Assembly: GCF_034119865.1 (NCBI RefSeq)
Contig: NZ_CP139421.1
Coordinates: 4,628,501 to 4,692,500 of the forward strand
Reading direction: 5' to 3'
Source of the DNA: Algoriphagus sp. NG3
GTDB lineage: Bacteria; Bacteroidota; Bacteroidia; Cytophagales; Cyclobacteriaceae
Length of the DNA stretch: 64,000 bases
This document shows, piece after piece, positions 33,388 through 42,567 of the stretch. A program made the position numbers and the translations under genes. The notes below the pieces were generated by a model. The model did no database searches and was not told where the DNA came from. It saw nothing but the letters and a program-made list of their open reading frames with translations. How positions within the stretch are numbered: position 1 is the first letter of the stretch; every line of letters begins with the position of its first letter.

Positions 33388-34014
33388 TTAATCTCGTTTT
33401 GGTACTGTTCCCAATATGTAATCCCACAGTGGCGTACTGACACCGAATGCCACATCAGGATCTTTGTAATGGTGAATGGCATGATGAACCCAAAGAACTT
33501 TCATGAAGTTCTTAGGAGGCTGTAGTGCATGTACCAAGTAGTGGATTCCCAAATACAACGCATAGCCAAACAAAAACCCAGGAAGGAAATAAAAGGCCAA
33601 ATCTCCCATGATCAGTTTAAAGATCAAATAGAGAATAGCGGCATAGGCGGCACTCACAAATGGAGGCATGGCCAGTCTATCCTTATCTTTTGGGTAATCA
33701 TGGTGTACGCCATGCACAGTATATTGCAACTTGTCTTTGATGGGAGTGTTAGGTTCCATGTGGAAAAAGTGCTTATGCATCATGTATTCCACGAAGGTAA
33801 ATCCTATATAACCTGTCACAAATAATAAGATCGCCGTACCAATACCCACGTCAGTTTTCTGTATCCCAAAATATACTGAAGTGCATCCCAAAATGATAAA
33901 CATTGCGATGGGCATCCAGATAGGCGTGCGCGTAATTCTTTCCAGAATAGGGTTGGAGAACATTTGGGCTGTGCCAAAATTGTCCGGCTTATCCAATCTT
34001 CCAATCTTTTTCAT
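33388..34014 (-). CDS. Fatty-acid hydroxylase superfamily (FA2H-like) membrane di-iron enzyme
   Basis: 208 residues, about four membrane helices. The histidine clusters of the sterol desaturase/fatty acid hydroxylase family are present in order: HKHFFH, HGVHHDYP, HYLVHA and HHAIHHYKD, giving the two-metal centre. The closest type is the fatty-acid 2-hydroxylase that modifies sphingolipid acyl chains; Cytophagales make sphingolipids, so this role is plausible but inferred. The start codon follows a conserved leader element (34036-34114) by 21 nt, and a terminator follows the stop. Confidence 0.9.
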   Translation of the reverse strand: MKKIGRLDKPDNFGTAQMFSNPILERITRTPIWMPIAMFIILGCTSVYFGIQKTDVGIGTAILLFVTGYIGFTFVEYMMHKHFFHMEPNTPIKDKLQYTVHGVHHDYPKDKDRLAMPPFVSAAYAAILYLIFKLIMGDLAFYFLPGFLFGYALYLGIHYLVHALQPPKNFMKVLWVHHAIHHYKDPDVAFGVSTPLWDYILGTVPKRD

Positions 34015-34035
34015 GTGTTGATATTTTGTTTTTAG

Positions 34036-34114
34036 TGGTCACATGGAATCTCGCATTGCTGATAATCATCTCAGTGTGTGATCCCGCAGGTACGGGATTC
34101 TGCTCGATTTCATA
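34036..34114 (-). promoter_or_regulatory. Leader element copy 1, upstream of the fatty-acid hydroxylase gene
   Basis: Read on the minus strand it holds, in order, TATGAAATCGAGCA, CACACACTG, ATGATTAT, TGCGAGATTCCA and TGTGACCA, all identical to copy 2 at 40215-40301. The first variable region forms the hairpin ATCCCG/CGGGAT. It ends 21 nt before the start codon. Nothing else recognisable is seen in the AT-rich remainder of this 316-bp gap (34115-34330). Confidence 0.65.
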
Positions 34115-34330
34115 TGATTATAATTTGTCTTTTGTAGGCCTTATGAATCTTTGAGAATTAAAAAAATCACTATCCCCTAAGTTTTAATGATGTTTTTTAA
34201 CCGTGTCGATTCTTAAGCTACTTAATAAAACTCTATTTCATCCTCCGGTTCTAATCCGGCATTATTTTACAAAGATAATCCAAAACTGTGTTTTGTCTCT
34301 GAGAATTTAATGACAATAATCAGGCAAGGA

Positions 34331-38041: not shown

Positions 38042-40084
38042 CTATTTGGAAAGAACTCCCACCTCAGCAAATGTCGCATCATTGCCATCGGCCGTTTTAC
38101 TGGCTTTTAGACGGATGAATTTGGCTTTGACTTCGTCAAATCGGATTATCTGCTCAATTGGGCTATTGACGATATTGGAGAATTCGCCCGAAGCCACAGA
38201 ACGGAAGCTTTCGCCATCGGAACTCACTTCAAAAACGTAATTCGTAATAAATCCACTTGGATAGCGTGCCTGCATCGGCATATAGGTAAATCCTCTGAGC
38301 GCTACTTCCTCCCCCAGGTTGATGGTAACGCTGTTATCCTTGCTGGCTACGTAAGTCTGGGGATTTTCATCTATCAGCTTTTCTCCCTGCGGAGATGTCC
38401 ATTTAGTTTTTGCCAAATCTACTTCTACAGTGATCGCTTCACTTATTTTGCCAGTGGCGGGATTTAGGGAAATGGCTTGAAGTGTAACGGGATTTTCTAA
38501 CTGGAAGGGAGAAGAGTACTTTTTGCTCTCTTTGGAAGGCTTCGATCCATCTAGTGCGTAATAAACTTCCAGGCCTTCTTCTGGACTTTCCAAAGTGATT
38601 TCCCCCGCTTTGTTTCTGGAGAAAGTAGGAGGCAGCAGGAGTTTGGGAGCATTGTAAATCCCGATTTCTGAAATTACAGGGATGTCTTTGCCATCGGTAA
38701 ACCGTATGCGGACCGAGCTGGCTTTTACATCAGGGAACCTTAGAATTCTCTTGTAACCTATTGTAGTGGCTTCGGCGATTTTTTCCCAATTTCCATCCGT
38801 TTTCTTTTCCAACACAAAGCTTTTCACCCGCTGGCCGAGAGGTGTATATTCTTGCAAAAGCAATCTATTGAACGTGATCTCATCACCAAAGTCCAAGGTG
38901 ATTTCACCAGAATTGGCACCGTCTTTAGTAGTCCAATACGTTCCATAATCACCGTCCAGAACATTTTCCACTTCATATCCTGCACCTCTCTCGTCATTTG
39001 CCATTGCCCTAGCTTGAGGAGCCAAATTATTGGCAAAGTCTTCTTTGATCTTTTCTGAAAATTTCAGGATCGCCTCCACATCGTTTTCATGGATCAGACC
39101 CCGTGTATCTACCGGGAAATTGATAAGTAGGGAACTGTTTCTTCCTATACTTTTATAGTAGATTTCAAGTAAGTCCGGCAATGAGCGTACTTTGTGATCC
39201 TCATACTTGTGATAATACCAGCCTGGGCGTATGGAAACGTCAGCCTCCGCAGGCACCCAATGTGTACCGTCTTCCTGTCCGGAAGCGTATTTTTCCGGGT
39301 ACTCAGGCATTCCGGCATAGACCGAATCACGCATCAGATTGGACCAAGTGGTTTCGTAGGCAAAGCCATGTTCATTTCCTACCCATCTCACATCTGGTCC
39401 TCCGTCCGAGAACATCATCGCTCCCGGCTGTAGATCGCGGACAAGTTTATATGTGTTAGGCCAATCGTAATAGGTAAGCTTGTCCACCTTTCTGGTTTCA
39501 TTTGCTCCTCCATAGTATCCATCACCTCCATTTGCCCCATCAAACCAAACTTCAAACACATCCCCGTAGTTGCTGAGTAACTCGGTCAGCTGGTTACGCA
39601 TGTAAGTAATATATTCAGGCTTGCCATAGTCTGGGTGATTTCTATCCCAAGGGGAATAATAAATCCCGAACTTCAATCCATATTCCTTGCATGCTTCGGC
39701 CAATTCCTTGATCAAATCACCCTTTCCATCCTTCCATGGACTGTTTTTAATAGAATGTTCCGTATAGGCTGAAGGCCAAAGTACAAAGCCATCATGATGC
39801 TTGGCCGTGATGATCAGCCCCTTCATACCAGCCTCCGAAGCGACTTGCGCCCATTGTCTGGGTTGCAGATCAGAGGGATCGAACATCTCAGGTTTTTCAT
39901 CTCCAAAGCCCCATTCCCTATCGGAGAACGTGTTCATATTGAAATGGACAAAGCCATAGAATTCCAGTTCCTGCCAAGCTATCTGGCGAGCTTCAGGTAC
40001 AGGTAAAACCGGGATAGGAGGCGCAGCTTTTTCAGTGCAGTAGGTAAAGGAAAGCAATACAGCAAACCAAAGCGTTTTTCTCAT
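38042..40084 (-). CDS. GH29 alpha-L-fucosidase with discoidin-type carbohydrate-binding modules
   Basis: 680 residues from the ATG at 40084, which starts a lipoprotein-like signal (LLSFTYC); the longer reading frame upstream has no such signal. GH29 catalytic barrel (about 30-345): FVHFNMNTF, LIITAKHHDGFVLWPS, FGIYYSPWDRNHPDYG, and the probable nucleophile Asp in VFEVWFDGANGG. It is followed by a first F5/8-type C module (about 370-480), a chitobiase-like/Fn3 insert (YYALDGSKPSKESKKY) and a second F5/8-type C module at the C-terminus. It releases fucose from glycans outside or in the periplasm. Confidence 0.93.
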   Translation of the reverse strand: MRKTLWFAVLLSFTYCTEKAAPPIPVLPVPEARQIAWQELEFYGFVHFNMNTFSDREWGFGDEKPEMFDPSDLQPRQWAQVASEAGMKGLIITAKHHDGFVLWPSAYTEHSIKNSPWKDGKGDLIKELAEACKEYGLKFGIYYSPWDRNHPDYGKPEYITYMRNQLTELLSNYGDVFEVWFDGANGGDGYYGGANETRKVDKLTYYDWPNTYKLVRDLQPGAMMFSDGGPDVRWVGNEHGFAYETTWSNLMRDSVYAGMPEYPEKYASGQEDGTHWVPAEADVSIRPGWYYHKYEDHKVRSLPDLLEIYYKSIGRNSSLLINFPVDTRGLIHENDVEAILKFSEKIKEDFANNLAPQARAMANDERGAGYEVENVLDGDYGTYWTTKDGANSGEITLDFGDEITFNRLLLQEYTPLGQRVKSFVLEKKTDGNWEKIAEATTIGYKRILRFPDVKASSVRIRFTDGKDIPVISEIGIYNAPKLLLPPTFSRNKAGEITLESPEEGLEVYYALDGSKPSKESKKYSSPFQLENPVTLQAISLNPATGKISEAITVEVDLAKTKWTSPQGEKLIDENPQTYVASKDNSVTINLGEEVALRGFTYMPMQARYPSGFITNYVFEVSSDGESFRSVASGEFSNIVNSPIEQIIRFDEVKAKFIRLKASKTADGNDATFAEVGVLSK

Positions 40085-40214: not shown

Positions 40215-40301
40215 TATGAAATCGAGCATGTCGATACGGACACACACTGGCATGATTATAAACGCTGCGAGATTCCACCTGCCGGCAGGCGGGTGTGACC
40301 A
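40215..40301 (+). promoter_or_regulatory. Leader element copy 2, upstream of the TonB-dependent receptor gene
   Basis: Same five conserved blocks as 34036-34114 in the same order (51 identical bases), with different inserts: a short GTC/GAC hairpin in the first gap and a GC-rich palindrome (CCTGCCGGCAGG) before TGTGACCA. It ends 22 nt before the start codon at 40324. Confidence 0.65.
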
Positions 40302-40323
40302 TTAAAAAAAGAATTACAAACAC

Positions 40324-42567
40324 ATGAATAAAACTTTCACTCTTCTCTGCCTATTATTTTCCACTTGGGCTCATGCCCAGATATCTGTTAAAATTGTGGA
40401 TTCAGAAAGCCGCCAACCCTTGGAAAATGTGCGGGCTAGCGTCAATGGAGAATTTATGGCCAGCAGCAATCAGAGTGGAGAGATCAAAATTACGAATACT
40501 GAGAAGTTGCTTATTCGCTTCGAGGTAGAAGGATATGAACCTATAAATAAAGAGGTCAGCCCTGGAAAAGAGCTGGTAGTCTATATGACTAAAAAATTTA
40601 TGAATCTTTCAGAAATAACTGTCTCTGCATTTGAATCCGAGCGGGGAATCCTTGAGCAATCGGCCTCCATAGCAGTAGTTTCGGAGCAGGATTTCAACCG
40701 GTTCAATGAGACCTCACTCGTTAATTCCTTCAACACCAAACCCGGAATCCGTATAGAAGAGCGTGCCCCCGCAAGTTATAGAATATCAATCCGTGGCAGT
40801 TCTCTTCGTGCGCCCTTTGGTGTCAGAAATGTGAAGGTTTATTGGAACGATGTGCCATTTACTTCACCTGATGGCACGACTGCTTTAAACCTTCTGGATC
40901 TTTCCAATATCAGAACCGCTGAAGTAATCAAAGGGCCATCTGGAAGTATTTATGGGGCAGGAAATGGTGGAGTGGTAAACCTATATAGCCCAGCAAATCC
41001 GGCAGGCGGGAGAGTTTCTGCGGATTTTATGGTTGGTGACTTCGGAATGACACGCTATAAACTGGGGATTTCCCAGCAAGTGGGAAATGGCGGGTTTGAG
41101 GCTTCTTACGTCAGCCAGAAGGCAGATGGTTATCGAGAGCATTCGGCGATGGACAGGCAGGTATTTCAGCTAGGGGGTTTTTTCAATGTGTCTGAGAAAC
41201 AGGAAATCCGTACACAATTGCTCATTTCCGACCTGAACTACCAAATCCCCGGTGCTTTGAATGCCGATCAGCTGGCAGAAGATCCTACCCAGGCAAGACC
41301 CGGTTCTGCAGCACAAAACAGTTCTATAGCCCAGCAATCAGTTTTTGCTTCAATAGGCCATTTATACAGGTTTACACCTAAACTTAAAAACTCCACAACG
41401 CTCTATCTCAATACCAATGATTTTGAAAACCCTTTCATTTTGGATTACAAAAAAGAACTGGGTTTTGGATATGGGGGAAGGACGGCATTTACTTTTGATG
41501 GGAAACTGGCAGGAAAAGACCTGAGGATCATTGCCGGGGGAGAGTACCAAAGCAGCGTGACGGATGCGCAGAATTTCGGAAATAGAGCAGGAGTAGCAGA
41601 TACCGTGCGTTTTGCGGATAAACTTGGTGCCAAGCAGGGCTTTCTGTTTCAGCAGGCCGAATGGGATTTGATGGAAAATTTTATGGTGACTTTCGCTCTC
41701 AGTGAAAATTTCAGCAGCTTGGAGGTCGACCGACAAATAGACGCATCGGGCGGAGCTACTGGCCTGCAGACCAGAAAATTTGATCCGGTTGTAGTTCCCC
41801 GATTTGCACTCAATTATCAATTCAATGACTACTCTGGAATTTACGGGAGTATCAGCAGCGGTTTTTCACCTCCTACCATCGATGAAGTACGGACAAATGA
41901 AGGCAGTCTGAATCTAGATTTGGAAGCGGAAAAAGGGTTGAATTATGAAGTGGGCTATAGAATGGGGAAAGGGAAGCTGAATCTGGATGTGACTGCATTT
42001 TACTTCAAGCTGGACCAGACCATCACTACGTATACCAACACCCAGGGAGTTGTGCTTTTTAGAAATGCCGGCTCCACGGACCAGAAAGGTATAGAAACAG
42101 CGATTGATTATGCGTTGATCCAAAGCCAAACAACATTTGTCAGAGATCTTAAAATCGGGACAGCGTTTACCGGGCATTATTTCACATTCAAGAATTACCA
42201 GCAAGGGGACAACGATTACTCGGGCAATGACCTCACAGGGGTTTCGCCCAATACCTTGGTCAGCCGACTGGATCTTCGCACTTCACCGGGTTTTTATCTG
42301 AATTTCACCCATCAATTTGTGGATGAAATCCCGCTGAATGATGGTAATACTGTTTATCAAGATGCTTACAATCTCGTGAATATGCGTTTTGGCTGGGCAA
42401 GAAGCTTTGCAGGCAAGTGGGAATTGGAAGCCTTTGCCGGGGTGGACAACCTGACTGATGAAGTGTACTCTCTGGGTAACGATCTTAATCCCTTTGGCGG
42501 AAGATATTATCAGCCTGCTCCAGAGAGGAATTGGTATGGTGGAGTGAAAGTGGCGTTTGTCTATTAG
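40324..42567 (+). CDS. TonB-dependent outer-membrane receptor
   Basis: 747 residues. Signal peptide (about 1-18, ending AHA), a short CarboxypepD-reg-like domain (about 20-85, VDSESRQPLENVRASVNG), then plug domain (VVSEQDFNRFNETSLVNSFN, IRIEERAPASYRISIRGSS, GPSGSIYGAGNGGVVNLYS) and beta-barrel ending VKVAFVY. It lacks a SusD partner and is of the size seen for siderophore/haem/cobalamin-type receptors; the ligand is unknown. The leader element 40215-40301 precedes it. Confidence 0.92.
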   Translation: MNKTFTLLCLLFSTWAHAQISVKIVDSESRQPLENVRASVNGEFMASSNQSGEIKITNTEKLLIRFEVEGYEPINKEVSPGKELVVYMTKKFMNLSEITVSAFESERGILEQSASIAVVSEQDFNRFNETSLVNSFNTKPGIRIEERAPASYRISIRGSSLRAPFGVRNVKVYWNDVPFTSPDGTTALNLLDLSNIRTAEVIKGPSGSIYGAGNGGVVNLYSPANPAGGRVSADFMVGDFGMTRYKLGISQQVGNGGFEASYVSQKADGYREHSAMDRQVFQLGGFFNVSEKQEIRTQLLISDLNYQIPGALNADQLAEDPTQARPGSAAQNSSIAQQSVFASIGHLYRFTPKLKNSTTLYLNTNDFENPFILDYKKELGFGYGGRTAFTFDGKLAGKDLRIIAGGEYQSSVTDAQNFGNRAGVADTVRFADKLGAKQGFLFQQAEWDLMENFMVTFALSENFSSLEVDRQIDASGGATGLQTRKFDPVVVPRFALNYQFNDYSGIYGSISSGFSPPTIDEVRTNEGSLNLDLEAEKGLNYEVGYRMGKGKLNLDVTAFYFKLDQTITTYTNTQGVVLFRNAGSTDQKGIETAIDYALIQSQTTFVRDLKIGTAFTGHYFTFKNYQQGDNDYSGNDLTGVSPNTLVSRLDLRTSPGFYLNFTHQFVDEIPLNDGNTVYQDAYNLVNMRFGWARSFAGKWELEAFAGVDNLTDEVYSLGNDLNPFGGRYYQPAPERNWYGGVKVAFVY

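Follow-up and report, generated by a model that had tools for sequence, protein, structure and literature searches.

Why do two unrelated genes of Algoriphagus sp. NG3, one encoding a fatty-acid hydroxylase and the other a TonB-dependent receptor, carry the same leader? The question arises in a 64,000-nucleotide (nt) stretch of contig NZ_CP139421.1 (positions 4,628,501 to 4,692,500; hereafter the window), for which a preliminary description had reported five identical blocks in front of both genes. Read directly, these blocks are TATGAAATCGAGCA, CACACACTG, ATGATTAT, TGCGAGATTCCA and TGTGACCA (14 + 9 + 8 + 12 + 8 = 51 bases); as described, they follow one another in the same order in both copies, and both copies are oriented into a gene. 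The leader had been taken for a structured RNA or cis-regulator, with a target-selective mobile repeat as the alternative. Empty sites, identical copies and the unrelatedness of the downstream genes support that alternative. We are highly confident that the leader is mobile and inserts at start codons, and we consider it likely that it is a non-autonomous repeat targeted to start codons and probably moved by an IS110-family recombinase.

Aligning 43 copies from the window genome and seven congeners defined a unit that starts with ATGAAATCGAGCA and ends with ...AAATTATAAACAN'ATGAAA. It is about 97 nt long (mostly 97 or 98 nt counting both ATGAAA) and longer where hairpins have been added, and its 3' end is the gene's own start codon. 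The leader had been said to end 21 or 22 nt before the start codon; by the covariance model, the unit instead continues through an A/T-rich tail and includes the ATG. In the window, copy 1 occupies 34009..34113 on the minus strand (ATGAAATCGAGC... to ...CACATGAAA; 87.2 bits, model positions 1-98 of 98), and its terminal ATG (34014-34012) is the start codon of the hydroxylase gene. Copy 2 occupies 40216..40329 on the plus strand (96.0 bits, 1-98 of 98), has an empty counterpart in a relative, G019, and ends at the start codon of the receptor gene (40324-40326). Both belong to what we call subfamily A.

A pattern derived from the blocks had 13 exact matches in the 5,891,454-base genome and 0 for a reversed-pattern control, so the repeat is not due to chance. 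The covariance model found at least 129 copies at E ≤ 0.01 in the window genome (G000; other G numbers denote relatives and L numbers fetched loci), a lower bound with 150 of 2774 candidates scored. Across the genus, 49 of 52 Algoriphagus genomes had matches at E ≤ 1e-6, with between 0 and at least 79 copies each (at most 79 candidates were scored per genome). Among the matches listed, those in named records came from Algoriphagus, Lunatimonas, Lunatibacter, Cyclobacterium and Pleomorphovibrio, with one further record each from Marivirga and a Flavobacteriaceae metagenome bin; of the 80 listed loci, the model was applied to 57. Counts on loci chosen by pattern or model are biased to intact copies, and gene calls throughout are simple longest open reading frame (ORF) calls. 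Phage and plasmid collections gave no match to the element, none of 8 pattern hits on viral contigs holds it by the covariance model, and a filter search of 2.77 Mb found no split elements. We found no published description of the repeat in the literature, most subscription journals lying outside the coverage.

Two sister subfamilies were also seen. Subfamily B reads ATGAAATCGACACGATTAAAATCATC...CGTCAAAGATTCCAT... and has a longer internal arm (L323:1670-1768, L331, L100); subfamily C reads ATGAAATGCCC...GGGCATTCCATCTGACC...CAGATGAA (L071, L080, L054, L040 and L142; about L071:1593-1685), comprises 7 copies by pattern and stands in tandem with subfamily A in several loci. One further copy (L168:150-191) has an internal deletion and retains both ends and the start codon.

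The most direct evidence for insertion comes from orthologous genes without the element. The TonB receptor gene of G019 reads ...attaatttgcccacATGAATAAAACT, compared with ...attaatttgccggtATGAAATCG[...]AAACACATGAATAAAACT in G000; the empty site joins at the ATG, and the last four bases before it differ. Because the receptor gene reads ATGAAT and the left junction ATGAAATCG, the letters shared by the two junctions are ATGAA. A hidden Markov model scan of 30 orthologous TonB loci placed the element at the gene in one, that of G000; another hit in this set, in L271, lies far upstream of the gene. At four more sites with an empty counterpart, the left flank aligns to 0 nt from both the element and the ATG, in a 1.2-Mb sample of G000, G009 and G050 that was selected around the window's region without regard to the element. 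The genes at these sites begin MKKIYLFLL, MKKTCFLII and MKILIIEDE (all three in G050) and MKTAFPSLA (G000). At three of the four, the empty orthologue has ATGCAA, ATGAGG or ATGAGC, so either the target was different in the carrier lineage or the sequence has changed since. The remaining orthologue pairs did not align up to the ATG and are hence uninformative. Polymorphic presence with empty sites, the feature by which a mobile repeat is recognized, was found at the TonB site and at these four.

The hydroxylase locus shows how copies accumulate. Of 30 orthologous loci, 3 have the element by eye; the G009 site, ...agaagcttATGAAAAAG, is empty, and G044 carries one subfamily B and two subfamily A copies, layered from the same point. 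G000 and G019 share a decayed B copy, with 241 of 248 aligned bases identical over the upstream 250 nt. Their gene-proximal A copies differ (75 of 91 aligned bases identical, with different hairpins), and the hydroxylase genes are identical at 274 of the first 300 nt. A shared B copy beside differing A copies indicates that copies are added gene-proximally and that each species has its own. In the window, the older B copy lies directly 5' of copy 1, at 34114..34215 on the minus strand (aligned with G019 and G044, boundaries approximate and drawn by eye), where G044 retains an intact ATGAAATCGACACG left end. Overall, an empty X-ATGAAA-gene corresponds to a filled X-ATGAAATCGAGC...AAACAN'-ATGAAA-gene, which means that the start codon is kept and a new A/T-rich leader is gained. 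Among 231 copies with both ends, the right flank was ATGAAA in 223, compared with 150 of 283 called ATGAA starts.

Movement has been recent in at least one relative: G050 carries eleven identical copies at unlinked places, seven of which open a long ORF. These young copies also bear on a rival that we take seriously but think unlikely, namely that the element inserts at any plain ATGAAA and that purifying selection leaves mainly the copies at start codons, in which case any mover would fit. Copies away from genes do exist, and tandem joints are also hit, in keeping with such indiscriminate insertion. Yet when the flanks of the eleven young copies were rejoined, no ORF of at least 150 amino acids crossed the junction except the gene's own in L333 (10 codons earlier), although 1245 of the 1743 ATGAAA sites in the 1.2-Mb sample are coding; L327 has a 141-amino-acid antisense frame, which ends 10 codons beyond the junction. 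Moreover, six of the eleven landed directly 3' of another copy (L319, L321, L327, L329, L331 and L334), three more have a left flank that by eye resembles an element tail, and none lies 5' of another copy. A similar polarity was seen in 65 tandem arrays, where the best-scoring copy was 3'-most in 42, 5'-most in 15 and in the middle in 8 (3'-most against half, p=0.012), a bias and not a rule.

Start codons are enriched among the targets. In the 1.2-Mb sample, 25 of 32 arrays (some of them weak hits) have an ORF of at least 60 amino acids at their terminal ATG, or 26 if LytB/IspH, whose start is another ATG close by, is included. The sample's ATGAAA sites comprise, besides the coding ones, 150 called starts and 348 other non-coding sites; 25 of 32 against 150 of 498 non-coding sites gives p=3e-8, and p=1.4e-4 if 45% of the non-coding sites were true starts. 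In a larger set of 263 scorable copies, from which 7 copies at the edges of loci and those lacking a 3' end were excluded, 139 open such an ORF and 73 lead into the next element. Several observations weigh against the favoured reading. In the same set, 42 copies end at an ATG with a short ORF (some of them run into sister subfamilies) and 9 end at no ATG; four of the eleven young copies (L319, L324, L332 and L334) have no long ORF behind them; the 15 arrays with the best copy at the 5' end run counter to the polarity; and the start-codon bias could come partly from selection acting on a plain ATGAAA target. In addition, the base before the target ATG shows no match to N' in 219 distinct copies, and the idea that N' is copied from the target was rejected for this lack of any relation.

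What does insertion do to a gene? The genes behind the element are mutually unrelated and include housekeeping genes: LytB/IspH is among them in the window genome, and dUTPase, GatC and peptidyl-tRNA hydrolase in relatives; DHDPS and QueA are also hit. We propose that insertions survive because the element would supply a usable translation start. The former start codon begins a short frame in subfamily A. Its stop lies at or immediately before the new ATG in 143 of 231 copies, where it could couple translation, and earlier in 84; in 4 copies, the frame reads on into the gene. In subfamilies B and C, by reading, the frame stops after a few codons. A conserved leader peptide was not adopted as the function, given the 84 A frames that stop earlier and the early stops in B and C.

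The element has a covarying fold, which overlaps the start codon. Three helices show covariation: P1, with a tandem G-A mismatch; P2, a variable hairpin; and P3, CATNTG/CAN'ATG. The first of these had been proposed as AATC-GA-GCA paired with TGC-GA-GATT, a helix that can form in both window copies and appears in the ViennaRNA fold of copy 1, while the lowest-energy fold of copy 2 is a different one. In the fold of copy 1, the 5' strand of P3 (CATGTG, 34040..34045, minus strand) pairs with CACATG (34012-34017), a strand that takes in the start codon. In alignment A2 (103 distinct rows), which was fitted to the covariance model, 93.6% of cells pair and 114 cells are changed on both sides, compared with 33 in shuffles; none of 500 shuffles reached 114. 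The N-N' pair in A2 is GC in 39, CG in 24, AU in 23, GU in 2 and other in 14 of 102. An alignment made with MAFFT (A1) gave 41 both-side-changed cells against 16 (0 of 500 shuffles), with 4 pairs showing both-side change, a number equalled by 201 of 500 shuffles. Among seven subfamily C copies, which start with ATGAAATGCCC, five have a matching GGGCATT. Two loop words, CACACTG and GATGATTAT, are conserved in A1. We discarded a possible fourth helix, formed by ATGATTATAA with the tail TTATAATCAT, since the substitutions inspected by eye in A1 fail to match. Folded singly, seven copies gave modest energies (z 0.0 to -3.1).

The covarying fold over the start codon and the conserved loop words are what a riboswitch or protein-binding leader would display, one that controls a regulon and has spread by duplication. 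We nevertheless find this very improbable and reject it on the orthologue and gene-content evidence: the downstream genes are unrelated, the element is absent from most orthologues of both window genes, eleven copies in one genome are identical, and copy number within a single genus runs from none to at least 79. No Rfam family matched; the window gave 0 matches at gathering level, and the regions around both copies gave sub-threshold ones only. Imperfect pairs comprise 30 G-T (G-U) and 36 A-C, so that there is no G-U preference and with it no sign of selection on the mRNA strand after landing, as expected of copies that decay without RNA constraint. The structural half of the original proposal therefore stands in the covariation of P1, the variable hairpin and the third helix, and its regulatory half finds no support; nor does the suggested link to iron, the downstream genes being unrelated. 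The outcome named as refuting that proposal, a simple repeat with many randomly placed copies and no covariation, fits only by half: copies are many, but they lie mostly at start codons and covary.

The fold suggests a role in movement instead. P1 and P3 share one continuous stretch, TGCGAGATTCCATNTG, which is internal to the element and antisense to the joint CAN'ATGAAATCGAGCA of a tandem or circular form, mismatched at the two G-A positions and at one A-C. Complementarity extends to 12 or more of the 16 joint positions in 136 of 219 distinct copies, compared with 0 of 219 when joints were shuffled. On our reading, the repeat of about 97 nt inserts at ATGAA(A), mostly at a gene's start codon and in the gene's direction, and further copies add in tandem; TGCGAGATTCCATNTG would act as a splint or guide, holding both ends or the circular joint for recombination.

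Which machinery could carry out such a reaction? Functionally, the element resembles the small, folded repeats that move in bacterial genomes, and several known classes share some of its features. MITEs (miniature inverted-repeat transposable elements) of DDE transposons are likewise small, non-autonomous and numerous, and undergo recent bursts; unlike a classical MITE, the element has no terminal inverted repeats (ends of A1, by eye). The ATGAA(A) at both junctions may represent either a duplicated target or a core common to the two. Integron attC cassettes share a single-strand fold with a variable hairpin, arrays in one direction and a short core at both junctions; the element differs in being dispersed over the chromosome and in having a gene-free unit. 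REP/REPIN sequences, which are moved by RAYT (Y1) proteins, are short, folded, non-autonomous repeats with many extragenic copies, and the element could be such a repeat, mobilized in trans by a Y1 (HUH, RAYT/IS200-like) transposase on single-stranded DNA. It is small and folded, lacks terminal inverted repeats and has guide-like pairing to both junctions, and Y1 matches occur in 50 of 52 genomes. This mover is nonetheless improbable, because two element-rich genomes, G014 (at least 76 copies) and G033 (34 copies), have no Y1 match, and three of the four Y1 genes of G000 sit between direct repeats of their own, with none near an element; the chromosomal strand bias is also weak (65% co-oriented, a value reached by 20 of 300 shuffles). 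Two details of Y1 loci may be recorded here: one Y1 gene of G000 is flanked by two 282-nt direct repeats that are 89% alike and belong to another repeat family (L057:1109-1390, 1891-2172), and one of 29 Y1 loci from relatives (L357-L385) holds an intact element (L371:1933-2030, G009).

An RNA-based route, with reverse splicing or reverse transcription where the start region of an mRNA is accessible, would account for junctions at start codons and would suit the splint-like internal guide and the tandem G-A pairs. We give it a slighter chance still than a Y1 transposase: a search of 28 genomes found no RVT_1 match in 5 of 18 element-rich ones (G044, G054, G056, G036 and G055), and the missing Rfam match counts against it too. 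By position, the nearest analogue is the TAACTGA family of direct repeats, which, according to its description (PMC4679880), consists of seven-base tandem units in Beggiatoaceae, Cyanobacteria and some Bacteroidetes. Like the element, these repeats are multi-copy and lie just upstream of the start codons of unrelated genes; unlike what is described there, the element is a folded unit of 97 nt, includes the start codon and has empty sites.

The anatomy of the element points to IS110, a family of which it is a candidate member only. According to the IS621 report (PMC11208160), to which the following comparison refers, IS110 elements are excised in circular form and recombine through a short core; guidance comes from an RNA that derives from the element's own end and covaries with both donor and target. 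The element resembles them in its lack of inverted repeats, in the short core common to both junctions, in its specific targets and in a structured own-end RNA that covaries with the element ends. It differs from IS621 in that its 97-nt unit is gene-free, its targets are start codons, 5-6 letters are shared by the junctions (ATGAA, mostly ATGAAA) and not a dinucleotide, and one continuous antisense to the joint replaces separate left and right donor guides. Given that movement in the IS110 family proceeds through a circle, needs no inverted repeats and is guided by an RNA from the element's own end, we suggest that an IS110-family recombinase may act in trans on the repeat, an assignment that, taken by itself, is tentative and falls somewhat short of an even chance.

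The distribution of recombinase genes is consistent with this assignment. Of 18 element-rich genomes, 13 have a PF01548 match, compared with 1 of 10 element-poor ones (Fisher p=0.004, genome size uncontrolled). Two genomes, G025 and G052, have an IS110 recombinase gene (PF01548 and PF02371) embedded in an element array at unrelated loci, with the layout ...CAGATGAAATACCCATGACGGG...GGGGGATGATTATATCC..., gene, ...CCCCG(T/C)AGATGAAATTGACATCA.... The flanks of the two arrays are unrelated (local score 24) and the units are alike from the left ATGAAAT to past the gene, which implies that the recombinase-bearing unit too lies between ATGAAA joints; the recombinases are 88% identical over the first 309 residues. 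Behind the gene in both genomes is a further unit, ATGAAATTGACATCA...CTTAGCGT, bounded by an ATGAAA joint on either side (L401:2919-2995, L397), and in G052 it has a GACGCTAAG/CTTAGCGTC arm.

Alternatively, IS110 elements may only land in the repeat, as they do in other repeats, and a different mover may carry it; like indiscriminate insertion at ATGAAA, this seems unlikely to us but deserves weight. IS621 itself targets REP repeats (PMC11208160). In G040, an IS110 of another type lies antisense between 5' and 3' element pieces before a gene start (L413:1769-3162), which indicates that IS110s may merely use the repeat as a target, and most fetched IS110 loci, including those of other types, have no element end at the gene. 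Against mere landing, the recombinase at the two unrelated loci of G025 and G052 is preceded by the same element-like left end (54 of 58 aligned bases identical), and the matching right half of an interrupted element was not seen by eye behind either gene. Further facts count against an IS110 mover as such. No PF01548 match was found in five of the 18 element-rich genomes (G009, G056, G016, G019 and G033), where there may have been past loss or divergence; the array-embedded type was found in two genomes only, and its frame in G025 is broken; G050 has a truncated IS110 after an element-like 5' piece and an intact relative elsewhere without such a piece; and the splint is uninterrupted, whereas bridge RNA has split donor guides (PMC11208160). 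Among 25 protein clusters shown for 76 loci, none is a transposase. If an IS110 recombinase were the mover, the repeat might be the smallest guided mobile element known, a 97-nt unit with its own guide, a start-codon address and a borrowed recombinase, a combined claim that we regard as doubtful.

The remaining features of the window concern the genes around the two copies and additions within them. The proteins had been correctly named: the one behind copy 1 (33388..34014, minus strand) has a fatty-acid hydroxylase domain (Pfam PF04116, 2.4e-20), and the one behind copy 2 (40324..42567, plus strand) is a TonB-dependent receptor (PF00593, 3e-33; PF07715, 1e-15). Copy 2 has an extra GC-rich hairpin between CCA and TGTG of P3 (40278..40293, plus strand; A1 and fold), and other copies have different hairpins near the same place in A1. 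Such hairpins (TCCCG...CGGGA, CCTGCCGGCAGG) recur at a few internal places of many copies (window:40278-40293; L035, L042), as if a second small hairpin repeat had landed there. An ORF listed for an alpha-L-fucosidase (window:38042-40243, minus strand) starts with GTG inside copy 2; its true start is probably an ATG near 40084, in which case the ORF call was misled by the element.

We conclude, with the same high confidence as for mobility, that a repeat has colonized the start codons of genes across a group of marine bacteria and has left a usable start codon behind. In one genome, scores of genes have had their start codon split by insertion and resupplied by the element, which amounts to a natural experiment on translation start in Bacteroidota. 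Gene starts and leaders in carrier genomes may be misannotated. The repeat may also point the way to a natural system that directs insertion to start codons; if the guided reading is true, a 97-nt element could enter even essential genes without breaking them.
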